IMG/VR virus record: IMGVR_UViG_3300001472_000009 | Location: 27,015-60,746 of that record | Reading direction: 5' to 3' (one strand) | Length of the DNA: 33,732 nucleotides | Source of the DNA: a virus | Part shown: positions 17,341 through 29,870 of the stretch, piece after piece | Layout of the letters: the number at the start of each line of letters is the position of its first letter | How positions within the stretch are numbered: position 1 is the first letter of the stretch | Translations under genes and position numbers: made by a program | Notes under the pieces: generated by a model | What the model saw: the letters and a program-made list of their open reading frames with translations, nothing else | Told to the model about the DNA's origin: nothing | The model's database searches: none

Positions 17341-17952
17341 ATGCATTTAAGTATTATTAATAAAGATTATCCTGTATGGGAATTAACTGAATTTGATTTG
17401 CCAGAATTAGCGACAGACAGTCTATTAGATACTAGTGTAGCAAATGTGTTACAAAATAATAGTAAACGTGAACCTAATCATTTAGATTGGGATAATCCAA
17501 CTCACTTTCATTTTAAAGAACGTTGGTTTACACATACTAATAAAATACAGAAGTATTTAAAGTCTGAACGTGCATATGAAGAATGTACTGAACTATTACA
17601 TATGTGGCCTAATAGATTTGAAAGGTTTGAATGGGGACAGGGTGAAAAGTCAATACAAATAATTCATGATAGGTCTGGATTTAAAATGACACCTCACATA
17701 GATAATAGAATGGTTATTGGAGTAGTAATTATTAATTTGCAAGATAACCCAAAAGATTCGGGAACTACATTTCATAAAGAACCAATAGTTTCTAGTCCAT
17801 GGTATAACGGACCAACAAAAAAGGGAACAGGTGTATTCTTTTTAAATAATTGGAATTCGTGGCACAGTATTGAAAACAACGGTGATGATAGACTTATTGC
17901 TTATGATGTAATGCCTTTAAGTAATATGTTTTCTGGACCATTCTCAGGATGA
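17341..17952 (+). CDS. 2-oxoglutarate/Fe(II)-dependent oxygenase-like protein 1
   Basis: A 203-residue protein with the facial-triad pattern of 2OG-Fe(II) oxygenases: MTPHIDNRMVIG gives H119-x-D121, and WNSWHSIENNGDDRLIAYDV gives the distal H175 with the 2OG-binding Arg at R184. The double-stranded beta-helix region spans about residues 105-195. Phage members often hydroxylate proteins, nucleic acids or small molecules. The substrate is unknown. It lies directly after yggX and its stop overlaps the next ATG (ATGA), so the three are one operon. Confidence 0.7.
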   Translation: MHLSIINKDYPVWELTEFDLPELATDSLLDTSVANVLQNNSKREPNHLDWDNPTHFHFKERWFTHTNKIQKYLKSERAYEECTELLHMWPNRFERFEWGQGEKSIQIIHDRSGFKMTPHIDNRMVIGVVIINLQDNPKDSGTTFHKEPIVSSPWYNGPTKKGTGVFFLNNWNSWHSIENNGDDRLIAYDVMPLSNMFSGPFSG

Positions 17953-24226: not shown

Positions 24227-24580
24227 ATGAAAACATCAATTATTGGACTGCTAGTCGCAGTCTTTTTTTCTGCAAACGCAATGGCAGAAGAATCAAATGT
24301 AACAACAAATATCGATTGGTCTTTAAAACTTGAAAGACAAGTAGAAGCACAAGCCAACACAGGCGAACTAATGGGTACTATGGCTGTTTTTGGACTAGAC
24401 GTATCAGCAGGCGGTCTATGGAATATTGACAAAACAGGTGAAGACTTTATTGACATGAATAAAATTATGTTGAATGCAAGTCGTTCATTGTCTGACAATG
24501 CAAGTGTCTATATAAAGAATGATTTTGATACTGATTGGGATAGAACTGAGTCAACTATTGGTCTACAGCTTACATTTTAA
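24227..24580 (+). CDS. Small secreted, beta-rich outer-membrane-type protein
   Basis: A 117-residue protein from the ATG at 24227, chosen because AAGGAGG is seven bases upstream and because it begins the signal peptide MKTSIIGLLVAVFFSANAMA with an AMA-E cleavage site. The mature part alternates short beta strands (NIDWSLKLERQVEAQ, then MGTMAVFGLDVSAGGLWNI) and ends in GLQLTF, with a terminal Phe as in outer-membrane barrels. At about 97 residues it is too small for a full 8-strand barrel, so it may be a fragment-type or oligomeric barrel. Expression from a consensus sigma70 promoter suggests early alteration of the host envelope. Confidence 0.7.
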   Translation: MKTSIIGLLVAVFFSANAMAEESNVTTNIDWSLKLERQVEAQANTGELMGTMAVFGLDVSAGGLWNIDKTGEDFIDMNKIMLNASRSLSDNASVYIKNDFDTDWDRTESTIGLQLTF

Positions 24581-24584
24581 TTTG

Positions 24585-24613
24585 TTGACAAAAACACCAC
24601 TATAGTGTATAAA
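24585..24613 (+). promoter_or_regulatory. Promoter of the tmRNA gene (sigma70-type, with late-type box)
   Basis: TTGACA (24585-24590) and TATAAA (24608-24613) are 17 bases apart. The -10 also reads TATAAATAT, matching the late-type box, so both modes of transcription are possible. The start would be about 24619. Confidence 0.75.
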
Positions 24614-24618
24614 TATAG

Positions 24619-24905
24619 ATGTTAACGTTGAAGCAACGTAGACACATACTGGACTGGGGGGCAGTACCCCACAGCTCCACCATAATTACTTTGTAGCGTA
24701 AAAACTACAAATTTACGGCATAGAGTAATTATGATGGGGCTGATATAGGATCGACAGGTGTGAAAGTGAAGTGGAGTTGACCGAGTGACTTCGTTATTGG
24801 TCAAAAACTATAATTGCAAACGCAAATTATCAGCCAGAAATGGCAATGGCGGCCTAATTTAGGCACGTAGGGGTTGGTGACTTACCTGGCAACAGAAAAG
24901 TCATG
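24619..24905 (+). ncRNA. ssrA: Permuted two-piece tmRNA (ssrA)
   Basis: The acceptor piece comes first. It ends with a T-arm TGGGG/CCCCA (24655-24659, 24667-24671; 7-base loop GGCAGTA), then CAGCTCC and ACCA, with the CCA end at 24680-24682 encoded in the DNA. After a spacer (24683-24735) the coding piece starts with GGGGCTG (24736-24742), which pairs fully with CAGCTCC as the acceptor stem, and continues GATATAGGATCGACAGG like the tmRNA 5' end. Pseudoknot 1 is visible: GAAGT/ACTTC (24768-24772, 24788-24792) and TTGACC/GGTCAA (24777-24782, 24799-24804). The tag frame from GCA at 24816 reads ANANYQPEMAMAA then TAA (24855-24857), in a GCCTAA/TAGGC hairpin. The gene order is the circular permutation typical of alphaproteobacterial two-piece tmRNA. 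The 3' limit is approximate. Confidence 0.92.
24683..24735 (+). other. tmRNA intervening segment with processing stem
   Basis: The ends CATAATTACT (from 24681) and AGTAATTATG (to 24733) form a 10-bp stem that brings the acceptor end and the coding 5' end together. Inside, TTTGTAG/CTACAAA and CGTAAA/TTTACG are two mutually exclusive hairpins. This segment is expected to be cut out to give two RNA pieces. Confidence 0.75.
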
Positions 24906-24934
24906 TTTTATTTAGGAGTGGGTATTAATATCAT

Positions 24935-26764: not shown

Positions 26765-27483
26765 AATATAAAAACAGTAACCAGAGGACTAAAGACTATC
26801 TAGCTAGGTTTGATAAAAATAAAGTTTTACAAAATTTGGTTGGTACTGATACTCCTATAATTATAGATATCGGTGCTAATATTGGACAAACTGTAGAAAA
26901 GTTAAAGACTATATGGGAAAAATCAGTAATACATTCTATAGAGCCTTTGCCGGACGCATATGAAGAACTATACTTGACAAAAGGTAAATTACCCGGTGTT
27001 TATGTATATAATACCGCTATTGGTTCAATAAATGGTTGGCAAGAATTTAATGTTAACAAACATCAACCTATGCTCAGTGGATTTTATAAATTGAATTCAG
27101 ATAGTAAAGATAGTATTGCTATCAACAAACCAGAGAAAGCACATAAGAATTTCTTACAATCTGAATCTATGCAATTTCCAGTGACAACGCTAGATAGATT
27201 TACAAGTGAAAATAATATAGATAACATAGATATACTTAAAATGGATGCTCAAGGAGCCGAACCAGAGATATTAGAAAATGGAATTGAAACACTAAAGAAT
27301 ACCCGAATCGTTCTTACTGAATTGTCATTTTATGACTTATATGAAAAGCAGTGTAGTTTCTACGATATTGAGAAAACGTTGATTCCCTTGGGATTCGAAC
27401 TATTTGATATCGCACATATCAGCAAAAACCCAATGAATGGTCGTACAGATTGGGCAGATTTAATTTATATCAAAAAAAATTAA
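26761..27483 (+). CDS. FkbM-family SAM-dependent methyltransferase
   Basis: A 240-residue Rossmann methyltransferase. Motif I is PIIIDIGANIGQTVEKL (residues about 31-47) and the acidic post-motif is VIHSIEPLPDAYEEL. Later VTTLDRFTSENNIDNIDILKMDAQGAEPEILENG is diagnostic of FkbM (the LKMDAQGxE step). FkbM enzymes methylate sugar or polyketide hydroxyls. With the glycosyltransferase and epimerase it suggests glycan tailoring. It ends the operon begun at ferredoxin. Confidence 0.85.
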   Translation: MKYKNSNQRTKDYLARFDKNKVLQNLVGTDTPIIIDIGANIGQTVEKLKTIWEKSVIHSIEPLPDAYEELYLTKGKLPGVYVYNTAIGSINGWQEFNVNKHQPMLSGFYKLNSDSKDSIAINKPEKAHKNFLQSESMQFPVTTLDRFTSENNIDNIDILKMDAQGAEPEILENGIETLKNTRIVLTELSFYDLYEKQCSFYDIEKTLIPLGFELFDIAHISKNPMNGRTDWADLIYIKKN

Positions 27484-27491
27484 AAAAAGAC

Positions 27492-27520
27492 TTGACAATA
27501 CCGAATCATTATGCTATATT
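27492..27520 (+). promoter_or_regulatory. Strong sigma70-type promoter for the structured RNA
   Basis: TTGACA (27492-27497) and TATATT (27515-27520), spacing 17, right after the methyltransferase stop. No ORF of any size with a ribosome site lies between it and the terminator at 27778. Confidence 0.8.
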
Positions 27521-27526
27521 AATAAC

Positions 27527-27835
27527 ATAAGCATCAGAGAGTTTAGCGACTTAATGATTGTAGTGCAAGGAAGAGGCCTTTACCAGAGGGTCGAACTTGA
27601 CTAGCTAGGGGTGGTACCCAGGTTCAAAGCTGAGAGGCCAAGAGTCACATCGCTCTACCGAGCGGAACTAGGTTCCCTTATTTCAGATGGTATCTGTGTT
27701 ATGGGGTTGTAGGTATAACCGAATCCTACCTACTTTGCTTATATTTTATGATTGCAATACCAAGCAATCAAAAATTAAGAGACGGTTGGCAAACCATATT
27801 TTTACTCACTTTCATTCAGCCAACTGTCTCTTTTT
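27527..27835 (+). ncRNA. Unidentified highly structured RNA (about 300 nt) with own promoter and terminator
   Basis: There is no open frame here, but many helices: GGCCTTT/AGAGGCC (27575-27581, 27633-27639) enclosing GAACTTG/CAGGTTC (27593-27599, 27619-27625) and a GGGT/ACCC hairpin. Then CGCTC/GAGCG (27651-27664), GGAAC/GTTCC (27664-27676), CAGAT/ATCTG (27684-27696), GTAGG/CCTAC (27709-27729) and GATTGC/GCAATC (27750-27769), closing at the terminator. GC content is well above the surrounding genes. It lacks the RNase P core, SRP loop, tRNA and tmRNA signatures I know. A regulatory RNA or a structured phage RNA of unknown class is the best description. Confidence 0.75.
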
Positions 27836-27837
27836 TT
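27778..27837. terminator. Bidirectional intrinsic terminator
   Basis: AGAGACGGTTGGC (27778-27790) pairs with GCCAACTGTCTCT (27819-27831), 13 bp with one G-U pair and a 28-base loop, followed by seven T. On the minus strand it is followed by TTAATTTTTG. It ends the structured RNA and the convergent aaRS-like gene. Confidence 0.9.
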
Positions 27838-28663
27838 ATTTCCCTAACTTATCTAATGCTGAAATCATTCTAGTCATACCGATTCCGCCACCTACTCTTG
27901 GGAAGAAATCAAACTCTAAGAATTTTTCTAGTTCTGCTTCTACTCTTTCTTTAGAGAATAGTTTGTATAGTAATTCTGAATATTCACCATTTGCTATTGT
28001 GTGAAAAGTATCTCTCATCATTGCTACATCACATGAACGTTCTGCGGATCCAATAGTTTCCATTCCACCTAATATTACATCTATTTTCTTACTTGTAGCT
28101 CCACCTTCATTTCTACTCATATTCCAGAACGGAGATGTCATTTCAGGAAAATCTGTAATCATCGTTGAACCGAATTCTTCAAACATTTTAGTTTCGTGTT
28201 CTGCTTCCATTTCTATTGTTGGTTCTAAGTTATAGTGCTTTTGCCAATCAGCATATGTTCTTTCTTCTGGTTTAGAAAACATTAGATATTCACATAATTC
28301 ATATTCCATCTTTTTCAAATCATCAATGTCACCTGGCATTTCAAATTCAAACATTGGGAAGATTATATCATGTCTACCCGGAATAGCATTTGGTTCTTGT
28401 CTATAGGACGTGGAGACACAAAAAAAGCCCTTACTATCGGGCTTAGAGAGTAATTCGTGTTCTAGCCACATTTGGCCTGTTTGGGGAAGTGGCCAGACCT
28501 GGTCTGCATAGTTATATGTTGCTACATTGAACGGGTCTTCACATGCCGCTAATATAGATAATCTGTTTTGGGTATGGACTTCTAAAAATCCTTTATCCAA
28601 AAAAAATGACCTTAAAAGGCCAACTGTTCTTGTAAATTTATCCGGAGATATTAATTGTGTCAT
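27836..28663 (-). CDS. Class II aminoacyl-tRNA-synthetase-like catalytic domain (Asp/Asn type)
   Basis: A 275-residue minus-strand protein counted from MTQLISPDKF at 28663, with AAGGAAAAG about eight bases upstream; the longer frame to 28762 is low-complexity. It has class II motif 2 (VSTSYRQEP, then GRHDIIFPMFEFE) and motif 3 (VGGGIGMTRMISALDKLG), and the general look of AspRS/AsnRS or the related asparagine synthetase A (about 330 aa). No OB-fold anticodon-binding domain is present; the protein begins straight with the catalytic core. It could activate an amino acid to make asparagine or to modify a protein or small molecule, rather than charge tRNA. It is expressed from a minus-strand late-type box. 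Confidence 0.75.
   Translation of the reverse strand: MTQLISPDKFTRTVGLLRSFFLDKGFLEVHTQNRLSILAACEDPFNVATYNYADQVWPLPQTGQMWLEHELLSKPDSKGFFCVSTSYRQEPNAIPGRHDIIFPMFEFEMPGDIDDLKKMEYELCEYLMFSKPEERTYADWQKHYNLEPTIEMEAEHETKMFEEFGSTMITDFPEMTSPFWNMSRNEGGATSKKIDVILGGMETIGSAERSCDVAMMRDTFHTIANGEYSELLYKLFSKERVEAELEKFLEFDFFPRVGGGIGMTRMISALDKLGK
28418..28444 (-). other. Terminator-like hairpin inside the aaRS-like gene
   Basis: In the minus-strand message AAGCCC pairs with GGGCTT around an 8-base loop and is followed by seven U, within the codons for KPDSKGFF. It has the full form of an intrinsic terminator in a coding region and could attenuate the gene; codon constraints make chance possible. Confidence 0.45.
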
Positions 28664-28736
28664 TTTCTTTTCCTTTTTGTTATCCAAAAAAAAATATAGC
28701 CAAAAAAAATTCTGGTATTCGTTTTTTGTATTGCTT

Positions 28737-28745
28737 TTATTTATC
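28737..28745 (-). promoter_or_regulatory. Late-type promoter box GATAAATAA (minus strand)
   Basis: GATAAATAAAAGC on the minus strand, 74 bases before the aaRS-like start. It has the same extended form as the box at 2578 (GATAAATAAAAGC). Confidence 0.5.
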
Positions 28746-28771
28746 AAAGTTATCAACAACACAATTAAAAA

Positions 28772-28800
28772 TTGTATTGATTTATGTTTAATTATATGTT
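28772..28800 (+). promoter_or_regulatory. Sigma70-type promoter for the phosphate transporter
   Basis: TTGTAT (28772-28777) and TATGTT (28795-28800), spacing 17. The start near 28807 gives a leader of about 100 bases. No convincing Pho box (CTGTCAT repeats) is seen. Confidence 0.5.
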
Positions 28801-28812
28801 ATCTTAATAAAT

Positions 28813-28895
28813 ATGAACGTAACAATGGTGTTACTCCCAGGCAATAGTCGAGCCTGGTTCATTATGTGAGCAACGTGGTAAAGACGTTAAGCAGA
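28813..28895 (+). promoter_or_regulatory. Three-way-junction RNA leader of the phosphate transporter, riboswitch-like
   Basis: ATGAAC (28813-28818) pairs with GTTCAT (28857-28862) and encloses two hairpins, GTAAC/GTTAC (28819-28834) and CAGGC/GCCTG (28838-28856), giving a compact three-way junction. A further hairpin AACGT/ACGTT lies at about 28871-28887, just before the weak ribosome site. It is a plausible ligand-binding or thermosensitive leader; I cannot match a known class. Confidence 0.6.
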
Positions 28896-28907
28896 AAGAG
28901 ATAAAAA

Positions 28908-29870
28908 ATGGACGCATTAACTTTATGGATGGCAATAGGATTTCTATTTGCCGCATATTCAGTAATCGCAAACGATTCAGTACAAACTCTTGGTACTTGG
29001 ATTGCATCAAATAACGAAAAATTTAATTGGAAGATAATGTGGGGAGCCGCAAGTTCGGTACTGCTTTATACTTTGTGGTATGGTTGGTATACTAATGGCG
29101 GAGATATTAGTTACGGACGATTAAACAAAATTCCATTTCAAGAAATACAATGGTATCATGCCGCCGCACCAGGCTTACTATTGATATTAACAAGAATAGG
29201 TGTACCAGTGAGTACAAGTTTCTTAGTGCTAAGTGCATTTGCTAGTACATTTGTATTAGAAAAGATGCTAGTCAAATCAATGATGGGTTATGCAGTTGCG
29301 GCTGTGGCGGCTTATATTATTTGGATAGGAGTTACTAAGATACTAAACGAAGCAAAGCCTGTTAAAGAAGAACACAAGAAAGCATGGCGTGTAGCACAAT
29401 GGGTAACAACAGGCTTTTTATGGTTCACTTGGCTATCACATGACATGGCAAATATTGCAGTATTCTTGCCAAGAGAAATACCTTGGGACTTAATGGTGCT
29501 AGTAAGTGCAGTGTTTGTAATAGGACTAGGATATATGTTCCGTGAAGGCGGAGGTAAGATACAAAACATTGTAATTGAAAAGCACAACACAAGATATGTA
29601 CGTTCAGCAACTATTATTGATTGTGTATACTTTCTAATACTATTGTTCTTTAAAGAAATAAACGATATACCTATGTCAACAACATGGGTGTTTGTAGGTT
29701 TACTTTGTGGACGTGAACTAGCTATGGCAACTATGACAGGCAAAGAAAAGTTTAAAACAGTATTTCCTTTGATTACTAAAGACTTTATCAAAATGATGAT
29801 AGGTTTGGGTGCATCAGTAGGTGTAGTTTTAGCAATTCATTATGTAATTGTACCAAATGGGTTACACTAG
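28908..29870 (+). CDS. PiT-type inorganic phosphate transporter (PHO4 family)
   Basis: A 320-residue membrane protein with about eight to ten hydrophobic segments. It has the inverted-repeat signatures of PiT permeases: SVIANDSVQTLGTWI (residues 18-32; GANDVANAFGT in cellular members) near the N-terminus, IGVPVSTSFLVLSA (97-110; GVPVSTTH) and, in the second half, WLSHDMANIAVFLPRE (175-190). A central hydrophilic loop (KPVKEEHKKAWRVAQW) separates the halves. At 320 residues it is shorter than bacterial PitA (about 500). A phage phosphate importer would relieve P limitation during DNA synthesis. The leader is structured. Confidence 0.8.
   Translation: MDALTLWMAIGFLFAAYSVIANDSVQTLGTWIASNNEKFNWKIMWGAASSVLLYTLWYGWYTNGGDISYGRLNKIPFQEIQWYHAAAPGLLLILTRIGVPVSTSFLVLSAFASTFVLEKMLVKSMMGYAVAAVAAYIIWIGVTKILNEAKPVKEEHKKAWRVAQWVTTGFLWFTWLSHDMANIAVFLPREIPWDLMVLVSAVFVIGLGYMFREGGGKIQNIVIEKHNTRYVRSATIIDCVYFLILLFFKEINDIPMSTTWVFVGLLCGRELAMATMTGKEKFKTVFPLITKDFIKMMIGLGASVGVVLAIHYVIVPNGLH

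Follow-up and report, generated by a model that had tools for sequence, protein, structure and literature searches.

A divergent, probably free-standing branch of the manA RNA family in marine T4-like phages

The window analyzed here (the whole stretch of 33,732 nt, part of an 89-kb virus contig) contains a promoter, a series of short helices and a terminator, which had been read from the letters alone as a free-standing gene for an undescribed structured RNA. The question is which RNA this is, and whether it acts on a neighboring gene or in trans. Structured RNAs have been reported in cyanophages (wcaG, glnA) and in pelagimyophages (glutamine riboswitch) (PMC9964418, PMC9004378). The wcaG RNA (RF01761) and the glutamine riboswitch (glnA RNA) are, like the RNA of the window, structured RNAs of marine phages, but they are reported as leaders and neither matched it. 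Another RNA, manA, was described as a marine and cyanophage RNA with a probable role in cis-regulation, perhaps as a riboswitch (Weinberg et al. 2010, PMC2864571). Since 2010 this riboswitch candidate has remained unexplained, and our literature search found no functional work on manA after that paper and no ligand.

The RNA unit in the window is composed of a promoter, a folded RNA and a terminator (Table 1), about 310 nt in all. As originally predicted, the promoter is of the consensus type (TTGACA-17-TATATT), with 11 of the 12 consensus bases, a spacer of 17 and a TG preceding the -10. The predicted 13-bp terminator was also recovered, with one G-U pair in its stem, a 28-nt loop and seven T; an automatic terminator scan had missed it because the loop limit of the scan was 8 nt. 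The region 27515-27837 folds at -92.9 kcal/mol (z = -2.95), and none of 100 shuffles folded as low. No plausible gene overlaps the RNA, in agreement with the absence of an ORF noted originally; the one listed ORF (27687-28004) is antisense to the gene at 27836-28762. Taken with the covariation of helices P0-P9 described below, these results upheld the view of the locus as a free-standing gene for a structured RNA, with a promoter and a terminator of its own. The RNA is preceded by a FkbM-type methyltransferase gene, which ends at 27483, and the gene that follows is convergent, which leaves the RNA without a cis target. The product of this convergent gene is short (308 aa), with weak similarity to aspartate-tRNA ligase or to asparagine synthetase A; a class-II tRNA-synthetase-like gene recurs beside the RNA in the lineage of the window, separated from it in two loci (L172 and L327) by a tRNA gene sequence. 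The whole 89-kb record holds one manA match with the Rfam model, and across 7.8 kb it is identical to part of a 187-kb contig that bears a T4-type major head protein.

When positions 27400-29000 were compared with Rfam at E up to 1, only manA (RF01745) was returned, over the full length of the model and at 58.1 bits against a gathering cut-off of 55.2 (E about 1e-13), a narrow margin. No match to tmRNA, RNase P, SRP, 6S or tRNA was obtained at the RNA with Rfam and ARAGORN, as the original prediction had held; its further claim that the element is undescribed falls, a known family covering it. A covariance model built from sequences of the window type (class II), termed R1, found canonical (class I) manA in 32 of 41 class I loci along its whole length (positions 1-179), with E values from 6e-7 to 1e-13. 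Because R1 detects class I end to end, the two classes form one family, and the RNA of the window represents a divergent branch of manA, an orphan family already known. It shares with manA the full-length covariance-model match, the helix order P1 to P9 and the marine phage setting, and the canonical members of T4-like cyanophages also carry their own promoter. It differs in its score (58 bits, where most canonical members in viral contigs reach about 140-198), in an additional outer helix P0, in a 4-bp P3 with an ACCA-containing P3a hairpin where canonical members have a UGAAUAAACUU arm, and in a terminator placed directly behind the RNA, with no regulated gene. The weak Rfam score, together with the 12 of 34 class II representatives that go undetected and the 11 more that score below the cut-off, could be taken as signs of a family unrelated to anything known, but with the full-length match, the reciprocal detection of class I and the matching helix order such a family is extremely unlikely. 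The Rfam type of manA is Cis-reg, and the window lacks the corresponding 5′ UTR location upstream of a regulated gene. Cis-reg is an annotation and not a part of the model, and therefore this counts against the label and not against homology. The free-standing architecture is at odds with the current cis-regulatory label of manA, and the interest of the locus lies there.

The fold was analyzed in two alignments, A1 with 50 distinct relatives and a nested 63-pair structure (P0-P9), and A2 with 40 diverse sequences and 48 pairs. In A1, where the search pattern GTGCAAGNAAGAGNCNNTTACCAGANGG makes its own columns invariant by construction, 90.5% of the cells were paired, against 77.0% in shuffled and at most 49% in slid alignments, 43 of the 63 pairs had double changes, and the covariation score was 0.405 vs 0.157. 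In A2, 96.8% of the cells were paired (78.1% shuffled, at most 50% slid), with double changes in 38 of the 48 pairs, 323 double-change cells vs 90, and a covariation score of 0.549 vs 0.193. The homologue search and the check for compensatory changes that had been proposed thus came out in favor of a conserved fold. Helices P3 and P3a were re-tested with an unconditioned pattern, because of the columns fixed in A1; in all 121 loci the two strands of P3 are complementary, and its sequence takes four forms (CAAG, CAUC, CUAG and CCAG). P0 is 90.3% paired in A1, with A-U changed to U-A in nine sequences and C-G to U-A in three, and P2 is 100% paired in both alignments, with double changes in three of its four pairs. 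The upper part of P1 is paired in 52% of A1, its shape varying among sequences. In A2, P4 is 99.6% paired with double changes in all six pairs (the window has a C-A mismatch at 27605/27667), P5 100%, P6 99% (upper part 90%) and P7 94.3%. The original prediction of short helices, a nested GGCC stem among them, held in that P0-P9 covary, but these are not necessarily the helices listed then, and the 5′ GGCC (27575-27578) pairs in P3a with 27588-27592. The additional hairpin P10 is replaced in one locus by the compensatory GATTAC/GTAATC (L182), and kept with other sequences in L391 and L327. A kissing loop between P3a (ACCA) and P5 (UGGU) was unsupported, the P5 loop being UUGU or UAGU in 11 loci with ACCA unchanged.

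Table 1. Features of the RNA locus and its surroundings in the window.
Feature	Position	Strand	Remarks
Permuted tmRNA, alphaproteobacterial-type	24572-24906	+	Rfam, ARAGORN; upstream of the RNA
Sigma-70-type promoter	27492-27520	+	-35 TTGACA 27492-27497; -10 TATATT 27515-27520
Structured core P0 to P9, about 216 nt	27527-27742	+	Alignments A1, A2
P0, 5′ strand AUAAGC	27527-27532	+	Pairs with 27737-27742; beyond the 5′ end of the Rfam model
Hairpin P1	27533-27558	+	A1: 99.5% paired, double changes in 3/4 pairs
Rfam manA RF01745 match	27542-27739	+	Model 1-192 of 192
P2, 5′ strand GUAG, closing the central multiloop	27560-27563	+	Pairs with 27730-27733
P3 CAAG/CUUG and hairpin P3a, ACCA in loop	27566-27599	+	P3: 27566-27569 with 27596-27599
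P3a	27575-27579 with 27588-27592	+	A2
P4, enclosing P5, P6 and P7	27601-27671	+	P4: 27601-27606 with 27666-27671
P5, P6, P7	27608-27619, 27621-27646, 27651-27664	+	A2
Stem P8 and upper stem P8a (27684-27696)	27675-27706	+	A2: 97.5%, 92.2%, 90% paired (helices 9-11)
Hairpin P9	27709-27729	+	A2: 100% paired
P0, 3′ strand GCUUAU	27737-27742	+	A1
Additional hairpin P10 UGAUUGC/GCAAUCA	27749-27770	+	Lineage of the window only
Intrinsic terminator and T-run	27778-27837	+	Stem 27778-27790/27819-27831
28-nt terminator loop AAACCATATTTTTACTCACTTTCATTCA	27791-27818	+	Loop conserved, stem changes (lineage of the window)
Class-II tRNA-synthetase-like gene, convergent	27836-28762	-	phrog_29758

Three pattern scans of marine viral contigs, which are related and not independent samples, gave at least 119, at least 119 and 93 class II stretches. 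Exactly one class II copy was present in each of 24 records of 62-268 kb, and class I occupied 39 places in 39 phage records. The only cultured carrier of the window type found was Pelagibacter phage Mosig EXVC030M, and the assignment of a SAR11/alphaproteobacterial host rests on Mosig (SAR11) and on the alphaproteobacterial-type tmRNA. Class II occurs commonly in marine viral contigs, but Rfam misses most of it, so that annotations of these phages omit it. Among the 34 class II representatives 11 passed the Rfam cut-off and 23 scored below it or were missed; the RF01745 model, which under-detects this class, could be extended or split. Pattern matches in bacterial genomes were mostly due to chance, and the three that were tested with the Rfam model were all negative. 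In the Vibrionaceae family manA was present in 6 of 198 genomes (L400-L405), one copy each, in the intergenic spacer that separates a histidine-phosphatase-like gene from one for a small membrane protein.

Promoters and terminators were then compared across the loci. In these consensus-based counts, whose shuffles preserve base composition only, promoters with at least 9 of 12 consensus bases were found at 103 of 121 class II loci vs 53 in shuffles (of the 103, 79 have a spacing of 17 and 80 the -10 TATATT), promoters with at least 10 of 12 at 83 of 95 class I loci vs 10.6, and terminators in 45 of 65 distinct class II 3′ flanks vs 4.0. In a larger set 82 of 121 distinct class II flanks had a terminator, among them 23 of the 25 in which the next ORF is on the opposite strand, as given by a simple ORF caller with some ORFs possibly spurious. 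Class I had few terminators, about 15 of 79 vs 4.3 (the window-type locus L110 having been removed from the list). T4-type late promoters behind the terminators were not enriched with the motif used (5 of 53, vs 5 in shuffles). The neighbors of the RNA changed from locus to locus. A T4-type major head protein lies upstream of 32 class II loci, and class I is located in cultured cyanophages after gp23 or before gp32, talC, purL, carbamoyltransferase or hypothetical genes; in P-TIM68 the gene that follows it is convergent. The same-strand downstream genes fell into 12 protein clusters in 49 cases for class II and 26 in 68 for class I and had no function in common. RNAs over 96.5% alike had different terminators and were located after gp23 or next to unrelated genes; as the terminators differ completely among such near-identical RNAs, no fixed antiterminator pairing can exist. 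No terminator was found in class II loci before gp32 (0/9), rubrerythrin (0/5) or peroxiredoxin (0/3), where 22-105 nt separate the RNA from the start codon.

These data bear on the published view of manA as a cis-acting riboswitch or leader (PMC2864571), in which the core would serve as an aptamer and the expression platform would be a hairpin or start site located downstream, the window then representing an attenuator that has lost its target gene. The terminator-less loci before gp32, rubrerythrin and peroxiredoxin agree with it, and so do the many class I RNAs located 5-60 nt before a gene. An expression platform coupled to the aptamer, as expected of a riboswitch, was however not found: the terminators are exchanged and the window has no downstream gene. 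This exchange among near-identical RNAs, together with the convergent gene in the window, constitutes the strongest case against a transcription-attenuating riboswitch, and the varying distance between RNA and gene, the lack of a common function downstream and the single copy per record also speak against a leader, so that we consider it an unlikely explanation. The class II loci before gp32, rubrerythrin and peroxiredoxin stay leader-like, and there a cis role is possible. One fold could also have two uses, as a trans-acting RNA in most phages and as a leader that in addition regulates the next gene in the minority formed by these loci. The split is clean, in that an intervening terminator is never present before these three genes and is present in most other loci, but a missing terminator is also expected from operon co-transcription or processing, as in the tandem with tmRNA described below, and a double use appears to us doubtful, with perhaps a modest chance of being correct.

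We consider it probable that the window, from a marine T4-like phage, carries a free-standing gene for a non-coding RNA acting in trans, namely a class II manA. The family membership, the covarying fold, the dedicated promoter and terminator, the single copy per record and the changing neighbors were all observed here, and its own promoter, its own terminator and the absence of an overlapping gene are what is expected of a free-standing phage sRNA gene. Host-type RNA polymerase would transcribe the RNA from the sigma-70-type promoter to the terminator, the transcript predicted from the sequence being of about 310 nt. The compact core, in which many unpaired bases are fixed (GUGCNNNGAA, the ACCA loop and the GUNGU loop), may then bind a putative protein or RNA partner during infection, and by analogy with phage tmRNA or sRNAs the RNA might act in trans, not by switching a neighboring gene. 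Several observations count against this free-standing reading, namely that about a third of the class II loci are without a detected terminator, that a leader role is possible in those 22-105 nt before gp32, rubrerythrin or peroxiredoxin, that class I has few terminators, that manA was classed in 2010 as cis-regulatory and as a possible riboswitch (PMC2864571), and that no trans partner or target was found for the terminator loop in the phage record.

This loop is peculiar to the lineage of the window. In L172, L327, L391, L229 and the window the loop ACCATATTTTTACTCACTTTCATTTCAT (26-28 nt) is kept and the 13-16 bp stem is rewritten with pairing retained; L182 is also among the loci with a conserved terminator loop. 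A conserved loop on a rewritten stem has the look of a presented binding site, possibly a candidate one. The transcript of this lineage could accordingly be imagined as a base-pairing sRNA with the 28-nt loop as its seed, for which the conservation of ACCATATTTTTACTCACTTTCATTTCAT speaks. However, the best duplexes of the loop with the 89-kb phage record, antisense targets included, were no better than those of shuffled loops, the terminators of the other class II members are short and of the UUCG type, and the loop could instead bind a protein or reflect shared descent, all of which makes a seed function quite improbable. An exact repeat of ACTCACTTTCATT at 17500 is no more than chance would give.

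In relatives the RNA is linked to a tmRNA. In all 15 loci where ARAGORN detected a tmRNA, it was located upstream of the RNA and on the same strand, and in 10 of 10 class II loci without a regular promoter a permuted tmRNA was found immediately upstream, again on the same strand. From the end of the tmRNA to the Rfam-defined start of manA there are 2-13 nt in nine of these ten loci; in the tenth (L345) a manA-like RNA follows the tmRNA but scores below the cut-off. The tandem loci are L307, L316, L320, L330, L331, L337, L341, L345, L367 and L375. Permuted tmRNA (RF01849, RF04321) resembles the putative trans-acting RNA studied here in being a single-copy, structured, trans-acting phage RNA, to which it is linked upstream, but it has no sequence or structural match to the manA-type RNA. 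The tandem suggests a tie with translation and provides a concrete functional lead. An obligate partnership was ruled out, since most class II contigs are without a tmRNA, and therefore a tie of the RNA to translation is not claimed. We propose only tentatively, at slightly less than even chances, that the whole manA family is a single-copy trans-acting RNA gene and not a cis-regulator, which would be spread widely among marine T4-like phages (those of SAR11, cyanobacteria and others), would also occur in some Vibrionaceae chromosomes, and would possibly be tied to translation. If manA is a free-standing phage RNA, seeking a ligand with control over the next gene would be the wrong experiment.

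Two further elements of the window were recorded. The ARAGORN tag of its tmRNA is ANANYQPEMAMAA. The leader at 28800-28905 of the gene at 28908 matched nothing in Rfam at E up to 1; it is possibly another structured leader, and its GAGCAACGTGGTAAAGACGTTAAGCAGAA and CCAGGC..GCCTGG hairpin are common to the window and L182.
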